From Giesbergeria sp. (GTDB lineage: Bacteria; Pseudomonadota; Gammaproteobacteria; Burkholderiales; Burkholderiaceae_C), in contig JAGNYI010000020.1 in the NCBI GenBank assembly GCA_017985015.1, positions 1 to 52,930 on the forward strand: 52,930 bases of DNA, written 5' to 3'. Made by a program: the position numbers and the translations under genes. Below the pieces are notes generated by a model. The model saw nothing but the letters and a program-made list of their open reading frames with translations. It searched no databases and was not told the DNA's origin. Below are positions 20,500-22,060 of this stretch, piece by piece; position 1 is the stretch's first letter, and every line of letters starts with the position of its first letter.

Positions 20500-21687
20500 A
20501 TGGCGAACGACTTTCTCTTTACTTCCGAATCCGTCTCCGAAGGCCACCCCGACAAGGTGTCCGACCAGATTTCGGATGCCATTCTCGATGCCATTCTTGC
20601 GCAAGACCCCAACGCCCGCGTAGCCGCAGAAACGCTTTGCAATACCGGCCTGGTGGTGCTGGCAGGCGAGATTACGGCAAAGCCAGGCGTCAATGTCGAC
20701 TACATCCAGGTGGCGCGCGACACCATCAAACGCATCGGCTACGACAACACCGAATACGGCATTGATTACAAAGGCTGCGCCGTGCTCGTCGCCTACGACA
20801 AGCAGAGCATCGACATCGCCCAGGGCGTGGACCATGCATCAGACGACCACCTGAACACCGGCGCTGGCGACCAGGGCCTGATGTTTGGCTACGCCTGTGA
20901 CGAAACGCCCGATCTGATGCCCGCGCCCATCTACTACGCGCACCGCCTCGTGGAGCGCCAGGCGCAATTGCGCAAGGACGGGCGCCTGCCCTTTTTGCGC
21001 CCCGACGCCAAGAGCCAGGTCACGCTGCGCTACGTGGATGGCAAGCCGCACAGCATCGACACCGTGGTGCTATCGACCCAGCATTCGCCCGAGATGAGCC
21101 TGGGCGACAAGATGAAGCCCGAGTTTTACGAGGCGATTCGCGAAGAGATCATTCGCCCGGTGCTGCCGGCCGAGTGGCTCACGGCAGAGACCAAATACCT
21201 GATCAACCCCACCGGCCGCTTTGTCATCGGTGGTCCGCAGGGCGACTGCGGCCTTACGGGCCGAAAAATCATCGTCGACACCTACGGCGGCGCCTGCCCA
21301 CATGGCGGCGGTGCCTTCAGCGGCAAAGACCCTACCAAAGTGGACCGCAGCGCGGCCTACGCTGCCCGCTATGTGGCAAAAAACATCGTCGCTGCTGGCC
21401 TGGCGCGCCAGTGCCAGATCCAGGTGGCCTACGCGATCGGCGTCGCTCACCCGATGAACGTGACGATCTACACCGAGGGCACTGGCGTCATCCCCGACGA
21501 CCAACTGGCCAAGCTGGTGCAGGAGCATTTCGACCTGCGCCCCAAGGGCATCATCCAGATGCTCGACCTGCTGCGCCCCATCTACGAAAAAACCGCCGCC
21601 TACGGCCACTTCGGCCGCGACGAACCCCAGTTCACGTGGGAGCGCACCGACAAAGCCGCAGCCCTGCGGGCTGCGGCCGGGCTGTAA
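20500..21687 (+). CDS. metK: S-adenosylmethionine synthetase
   Basis: MetK makes S-adenosylmethionine from methionine and ATP, in the cytoplasm as a tetramer. The 395-residue product shows the N-terminal [25 protein letters not shown] motif with the ATP-binding His, [12 protein letters not shown], the [16 protein letters not shown] phosphate loop and the C-terminal domain. An AGGAG lies 10 bases before the ATG. The last 13 codons, [12 protein letters not shown] and stop, contain a perfect 9-bp inverted repeat and recur three times downstream as degenerate copies. Confidence 0.98.
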
Positions 21688-22060
21688 GCCCGCTGCGCGC
21701 AAGCGCAGTGTCGGTGCGCGGGCGAAGCTCCTATCGCGCAGCGATGTGAGCGCAGACCAAAAGACAGACAAGGCTGCCACGCTGCGCGCGGCAGCGGGCC
21801 TGTAAGGCCCTGAGCGAAGCGAGCTTGTCTGGCTATCGGCGCAGGCTCATATCGGCGCAGCCGATGTGAAGGGCCGCAAGGCCCGGCCGAAGCCAGCGCA
21901 CGGACAAAGCCCAAGCGCTGCGTGCAGCGGCTGGGCTGTAAGACCAGCATTTGGGGAGCAAATCTTGGGCTTTGGGGTGAAGCTCATATTGCGCAGCCAT
22001 GTGAGCGGAGACCACAAAGCCGCAGCCTTGCGGGCAGCGGCCGGGCTGTAAGCCCGCTGC
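21649..22060 (+). repeat. Tandem array of metK 3'-end units with conserved hairpins
   Basis: Four copies of a 39-bp segment that encodes xKAxxLRAAAGL plus TAA occur at 21649-21687 (the metK end itself), 21767-21805, 21903-21941 and 22013-22051, spaced 118, 136 and 110 bp. Each stop codon sits in a small hairpin with a GTA loop (GGGCT/AGCCC; GGGCCT/AGGCCC; CTGG-g-CT/AG-a-CCAG; GGGCT/AGCCC). Between copies lies a second hairpin with a GCA loop near 21727-21751, 21847-21869 and 21982-22005. A third hairpin with a GCAA tetraloop is at 21693-21708. Stems differ between copies but keep pairing. This array fills most of the 504 bp between metK and the DUF1328 gene. Confidence 0.85.

Follow-up and report, generated by a model that had tools for sequence, protein, structure and literature searches.

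The window analyzed here is a 52,930 bp stretch of Giesbergeria sp. contig JAGNYI010000020.1, and it contains an array of repeats immediately downstream of metK, whose product is identified by NCBIfam TIGR01034 (582 bits against a cut-off of 309). The last 39 nt of metK, which include its TAA stop codon (21649–21687), recur downstream at 21767, 21903, and 22013, where they are identical to the metK 3′ end at 29/39, 33/39, and 36/39 positions, respectively. The best ungapped match among 500 shuffles of the downstream region was 26/39, so the three repeats reported in the initial annotation are borne out, and its unit spacings of 118, 136, and 110 bp are likewise correct. The linkers of the array are of two types, and only the middle one (21834–21898) gives a strong match to a dispersed structured element, here called the core; the first type-B linker (21720–21762) has a weak, nonsignificant match to one core model (R1, E = 8.8) and no match to R2, a covariance model built from 35 cores. 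The features of the locus are as follows.

20500..21687, + strand: metK, encoding methionine adenosyltransferase, the host gene whose 3′ end is copied (TIGR01034; ORF list)
21641..21758, + strand: putative newest cassette, 118 bp directly 5′ of AAAAGACAGACAAGG relative to three congeners (before/after comparison)
21642..21719, + strand: unit 1 three-armed four-way junction, spanning the metK stop codon (RNA fold)
21649..21687, + strand: unit 1, the genuine final 39 nt of metK with its TAA (shuffle-tested match)
21720..21762, + strand: type-B linker, one hairpin with a GCA loop and, by reading, a GNA/GNA internal loop (direct repeat D2)
21761..21834, + strand: unit 2 cloverleaf (folds)
21767..21805, + strand: unit 2, apparent fossil of an earlier metK end (shuffle test and congener comparison)
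21834..21898, + strand: type-A core, a dispersed structured element (R2, 60.5 bits, E = 1.2e-19)
21898..21979, + strand: unit 3 cloverleaf, with one mismatch in the stop hairpin (folds)
21903..21941, + strand: unit 3, metK 3′-end copy, 33/39 (shuffle-tested match)
21975..22017, + strand: second type-B linker (direct repeat D2)
22013..22051, + strand: unit 4, metK 3′-end copy, 36/39 (shuffle-tested match)

The structure is larger than the initial annotation had it. Around the stop codon (21642–21719), unit 1 and its downstream flank form a four-way junction with three arms, and none of 200 shuffles is as stable as the stretch 21640–21775 (z = −5.44). Stretches spanning unit 2 and unit 3, linkers included, fold alike (z = −4.1 with 0/200 and z = −2.9 with 1/200 shuffles equally stable, respectively), and the metK ends of other families (L079, L193, and L110) fold similarly. 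Two of the stop hairpins with GTA loops are paired as had been described (GGGCT-GTA-AGCCC and GGGCCT-GTA-AGGCCC), but the third, CTGGGCT-GTA-AGACCAG, has a G·A mismatch that was concealed by dots in the initial annotation; paired forms of this hairpin, CTGGTCT/AGACCAG and CTGGCCT/GGGCCAG, are present in congeners. The linker hairpin with the GCA loop was correctly described, as was its lengthening by one pair (ATCGC/GCGAT to ATCGGC/GCCGAT); the third linker copy, ATTGC/GCCAT, contains a mismatch that went unmentioned. Co-variation of the stems is real, but selection, which had been taken to follow from it, is not implied by co-variation alone, since replication template switching is described in passages of a published study (PMC8794818) as a route that can both create and maintain hairpins.

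Comparison with three congeners, G012, G007, and G018, gives an apparent before/after pair at metK. In these genomes the gene reads ...TGGG followed directly by AAAAGACAGACAAGG and ends in sequence equal to unit 2 of the window, which is identical to the three metK ends at 38, 39, and 38 of 39 positions, respectively. Over the 110 nt that start at AAAAGACAG, noncoding flank included, 108 (G012), 106 (G007), and 108 (G018) positions are identical, and the metK bodies are 90–93% identical (1053/1141, 1053/1135, and 1026/1135, respectively). In the window, 118 nt (21641–21758) immediately precede AAAAGACAG and supply the metK end in use, and the former end lies 118 bp further downstream as an apparent fossil; a foreign functional end with the native end beyond the insert was found against all three congeners compared. 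This putative newest cassette contains the metK end in use (unit 1), the stop hairpin, a third arm, a closing strand, and a type-B linker. Its best downstream matches are 108/118 in G018, 104/118 in G007, and 85/114 in G012, and those in G018 and G007 are the last unit of the array, so the donor may have been an array of the same kind. The same resemblance means that ordinary rearrangement within the array can explain the insertion.

Among 30 metK loci (the window's own included) drawn from 58 genomes with a match, 11 have metK copies above the shuffle maximum. The arrays in L017, L019, L022, and L027 contain no core-like sequence, and in L017, L019, and L027 nothing but a palindrome with a CGYTA center lies between the tandem 3′-end copies; such coreless arrays reflect either loss of the core or a separate route of gene-end duplication. 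A SAH riboswitch (Rfam RF01057) lies on the minus strand of L110 (4776–4884), on the same contig as a core-bearing metK.

The argF gene provides a second test of end replacement. In G003 and G023 the argF copy beyond the core is 101/110 and 98/110 identical, respectively, to the core-free argF end of G024, whereas the functional copy is 59/110 and 60/110 identical to G024 and 104–106/110 identical to the ends of G004 and G013 (the argF bodies of G003 and G023 are 86–87% identical to those of G004 and G013). On this comparison the native end is the one that lies beyond the core. In a third genome, G022, the copy beyond the core is only 67/110 identical to G024 by ungapped comparison; a foreign end with a native fossil was seen in two of the three genomes tested. 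By reading, a core lies beside argF in 11 of 30 argF loci, patchily among close relatives; the apparent core at G032 argF is a chance match to the regular expression.

A search of the window's own genome with the array, in which 40 of 88 candidates were scored, found the array itself and three places elsewhere that match only the linker, two at the end of argF (whose 3′ end is itself repeated) and one directly 3′ of groES. Model R2 finds six copies in this genome at E < 1e-4, at groES, argF (twice), metK, a LivH-like permease gene, and an alanyl-tRNA-editing-like gene; the last two names are cautious ones, since at 1e-20 the permease matched nothing in NCBIfam and the editing-like protein falls under its cut-off. 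The permease locus carries two gene-end copies, and a run of N interrupts the argF end (L002, 1629–1728), so the argF copy number here is uncertain. Within the order, 250 genomes were sampled, and 88 of them have a match to the core, a structured element of about 50–70 nt; in this survey 21 candidates were scored per genome, so that copy numbers are lower bounds. The complete genomes G055 and G078 contain 47 and 65 core matches, respectively, at E ≤ 0.001. A search of named genome records with an exact core pattern gave 49 matches on 46 stretches. Where the title of a record is informative, it is, we take it, betaproteobacterial (Burkholderiales, Rhodocyclales, Thiobacillus, Gallionella, and others), and a few say only Proteobacteria or Pseudomonadota. 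Since the pattern presets both the left-hand TTTC and the right-hand AAAA, these two motifs are not evidence on their own.

The layout of the core is TTTC-GGC-GCA-GGCT-[hairpin]-AAG-[hairpin]-GGCC-GAA-GCC-AAAA. In its stems 94.2% of cells are paired (85.2 in shuffles), and double-change cells number 61, compared with 18.6 in shuffles and 6–11 in slid controls; further pair types show no excess (18 vs 18.9 in shuffles). Triloops on stems of at least four pairs are GNA in 30 of 44 cases, compared with 62 of 779 in DNA of the same loci. Since GNA loops and GCGAAGC form extraordinarily stable DNA mini-hairpins, as set out in parts of PMC4686876, this suggests that the coding strand of the core acts as folded single-stranded DNA. 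No core match was found among 4227 Rfam families at gathering score in 13 loci. A role as transcription terminator was considered and rejected, there being no U tract in the cores read; by reading, the dksA loci L098, L102, L103, and L116 have a separate hairpin and T run further downstream of the core. A phage or plasmid vehicle was also rejected, with 0 matches to the exact core pattern in viral_contigs and no match at E ≤ 1e-3 in the plasmid collection with one 64-nt core as query. The strand sense of the G078 copies (39 of 65 one way if the origin is assumed at coordinate 1) is uninformative.

Some cores lie within larger units. By reading, at loci of G078 (L179, L183, L185, L191, L195, L197, L199, and L201) and G055 (L194, L196, L198, L200, L202, and L204) the core is contained in two inverted-repeat, MITE-like units, which differ in their termini and are similar in their interiors. 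The 56-nt core is the same in all six dispersed G055 copies, which suggests that they moved recently. In L179, L191, L199, and L201, minimal 22-nt units (TTTCGGCGNAGCC-AAAACGNAG) lie upstream of full cores, and the larger cores look as if they had grown by the nesting of GNA hairpins inside GNA loops.

Upstream of 36 of the 49 core matches, and no more than 140 nt away, lies the end of an ORF of 100 codons or longer, compared with 203 of 980 random positions; a few of these ORFs are probably incidental (e.g., L115, L130, L134, and L138). The other 13 lack a sense gene end within that distance, and open frames run across several of the cores; in L117 and L139 such frames cross cores in efflux-pump-like genes (named by eye), possibly as in-frame insertions, and L139 carries three tandem core copies. 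At 28 of the 49 matches, compared with 5 of 138 controls, the flank recurs past the core with a score of 23 or more, a neighboring tandem core adding to the score of two of the 28 (one each in L105 and L139), and at 21 of the 49 there is no flanking repeat above threshold. By reading, the duplicated stretch is about 16–80 bp and often ends near a gene boundary. A stop codon touches a hairpin loop (score at least 6) in 13 of 30 distinct gene ends, compared with 4 of 351 control genes from the same loci, and six of the 13 are not independent because all six are argF. In 24 of 49 cases the bases directly before the core can pair, with a score of 9 or more, with sequence further upstream, compared with 35 of 490 controls that carried the identical fixed TTTC; of the 24 upstream partners 21 start with AAAA, a preference to which the fixed TTTC contributes in part. 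Recognized hosts are metK, argF, dksA, recA, ftsW, groES, glmS, accB, acs, ccmE, nuoF, and the pilT family, several from fragments below the full-length cut-off, and in nuoD the core lies at the gene start, some copies there being antisense. The same sites are used across families, for example in metK, argF, and ccmE. Core and gene-end architecture are thus shared by genes that have nothing to do with SAM (argF, dksA, recA, ftsW, groES, glmS, accB, and the nuoD start).

The array is probably a stack of noncoding gene-end cassettes that spread sideways and amplify locally. Dispersal, repeated flanks, complementary segments, and end replacement at metK and argF are evident from the sequences themselves, and the mechanism might be as follows. 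Each cassette would comprise a copy of the host gene's 3′ end with its stop codon, a strand that closes hairpins with the copied coding sequence, a segment whose complement in the gene is found at an A-rich site (GAAAA in many cases), and the conserved GNA-loop core GGC-GCA-GGCT-hairpin-AAG-hairpin-GGCC-GAA-GCC. As the closing strand pairs with coding sequence, the stop codon would tend to sit near the hairpin apex. Insertion would take place immediately 5′ of an AAAA near the gene's 3′ end and would leave the old end downstream as a fossil, and the gene would not be lost, since the cassette supplies in-frame last codons and a stop. Spread between species might occur by homologous recombination with the gene body on the left and the gene-end copy on the right; exchange between homologous gene ends would account for the cassettes' preference for conserved genes. 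Arrays may grow, and stems be repaired, through slippage and template switching, with coding-strand DNA folded into very stable GNA hairpins as the substrate; published parallels are template switching as a route to hairpins (PMC8794818) and bacterial quasipalindrome mutation (PMC7202029). Only tentatively do we suggest that these cassettes form a new class of mobile element that encodes nothing itself, in which a folded single strand finds its target by pairing its arms with a host gene end, inserts before AAAA, carries a replacement tail, and so could home, without harm to the host gene, into one set of conserved genes throughout a bacterial class.

Several other explanations deserve weighing. 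An ordinary interspersed palindromic repeat of the REP, MITE, or BRE type, in which a transposase drops the core behind genes and slippage then tandemly duplicates gene end and core together with no swapping of ends, would fit the variable copy number of the tandem arrays, the cores of G055 and G078 that by reading lie inside MITE-like units, and the VNTR behavior of a known betaproteobacterial repeat, as reported in passages of PMC3110155. This explanation is unlikely, if a serious one, in that it does not predict the complementarity of pre-core bases to the local gene, the foreign first copies of argF beside native fossils, or a metK pair in which the fossil equals the ancestral end. A functional mRNA 3′-end element, with a stop-codon cloverleaf kept for protecting or regulating housekeeping mRNA and compensatory changes following, is favored by strong folding and covariation, by the sense orientation of most pattern matches to the gene end, and by the folding of metK ends that have a core or type-B linker (mean z −3.6, n = 12) compared with those without (−1.3, n = 14), means for which three coreless arrays were set aside, 4 of 30 loci were left out, and L030 was counted as core-bearing by eye. 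Such an element does not sit well with patchy presence among close relatives (the argF core in 11 of 30 loci, by reading) or with copies that are antisense at nuoD starts or crossed by open frames, and covariation can arise without selection through template switching, according to passages of PMC8794818. On balance it is also unlikely.

Single-strand transposition by RAYT/Y1 (IS200/IS605-like) enzymes, with pairing of the TTTC foot to target GAAA as the guide, would account for the guide-like pairing of hairpin foot and target, which resembles the guide pairing of element foot with target in the IS200/IS605-like Y1 class, and for GNA-loop hairpins on one strand; there is also a weak association, a Y1 gene being found in 59 of 88 core-bearing and 84 of 162 other genomes (p = 0.023, if the same genomes were drawn in both surveys). 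To our knowledge, enzymes of this class would not be expected to duplicate gene ends. Furthermore, no Y1_Tnp match at E ≤ 1e-6 is present in complete genome G055, which has 47 core copies, and 29 of the 88 core-bearing genomes are not listed as having Y1_Tnp, so RAYT transposases are not obligatory for the core, and transposition of this kind is very unlikely to be the explanation. The initial annotation had offered four readings, among which a REP-like family that captured the gene end came close and a metK- or SAM-specific 3′ UTR regulator finds no support. A SAM-linked 3′ UTR regulator or 3′-derived small RNA peculiar to metK would suit an array directly 3′ of that gene, but many unrelated genes have the same architecture, and the best Rfam match in 21400–22400 has E = 0.25, far under the gathering score. 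Regulation of this sort was rejected because core and architecture recur at genes unrelated to SAM, and we regard it as extremely improbable.

Should the gene-end cassette interpretation hold, many betaproteobacteria would have housekeeping genes whose final codons are exchangeable parts supplied by tiny hairpin cassettes, and the fossils left downstream would record each swap of ends. The cassettes would offer a natural system for asking how noncoding hairpins move, why stop codons reach hairpins, and whether it is selection or template switching that lies behind the covariation of bacterial repeats. For specialists the surprise is probably less another palindromic repeat than gene-end swapping and complementary arms. 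Among the open-access papers listed by keyword search, no description of this element was found in titles, the starts of abstracts, or passages of PMC2267715 and PMC10969869, and the strings GCCGAAGCC and GCGCAGGCT co-occur only in two unrelated open-access papers.

Elsewhere in the window (32135–32387) lie about three tandem copies of an 87-bp repeat (2.9 copies, 93% matches) with CCCCCCGAGGGGG, which looks like the betaproteobacterial BRE (the published element is about 90 bp). This repeat has no evident sequence in common with the core, and on this reading BRE and the core are probably different repeats. BRE is a short dispersed betaproteobacterial repeat, mostly intergenic and sometimes overlapping gene ends, and some of its copies form tandem runs whose number varies between strains (Hot et al. 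2011; PMC3110155, passages). In being short, dispersed, betaproteobacterial, and partly tandem it is like the core, but the same passages of PMC3110155 do not mention gene-end copies, which set the cassette apart. REP, BIME, and REPIN sequences are like the core in that they are small, palindromic, noncoding, and often behind genes, and the core is indeed a short palindrome dispersed mostly at gene ends; the cassette differs in having a host gene end within the unit, a target-complementary segment, and no obligatory Y1 transposase, no accompanying Y1_Tnp gene being found in complete G055 or in 29 of 88 core-bearing genomes. MITEs and the Rickettsia palindromic elements are tiny nonautonomous insertions, some inside ORFs, and the core resembles them in both respects. 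It is unlike MITEs in that it has no fixed terminal inverted repeats outside the core and duplicates about 16–80 bp rather than a few; an outer stem, TTT-GGC/GCC-AAA, is present, the flanking repeats are long and variable, and the transposase search made was for Y1.

Integron attC arrays are built from units inserted serially beside a fixed gene start, and attC sites conserve structure over sequence and act as a folded single strand. The cassettes are similar in their apparent serial insertion before one another, their conserved structure, and their putative folded single strand, but unlike integron cassettes they carry only a gene tail. The attC core-site boxes are RYYYAAC and GTTRRRY, of which the GTT is needed; in the core the third base of the GTT box covaries with its partner (AU 21, CG 6, GC 3, other 5; n = 35), and the window core reads GTGAAGG, without the attC GTT. 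Finally, genomic islands that integrate in the 3′ ends of genes restore the gene. The cassettes are unlike these islands in being about 100–160 bp long, noncoding, and arranged in tandem arrays, with no integrase seen in the unit, but in both cases incoming DNA appears to replace the 3′ end of the gene and to leave the old end downstream.
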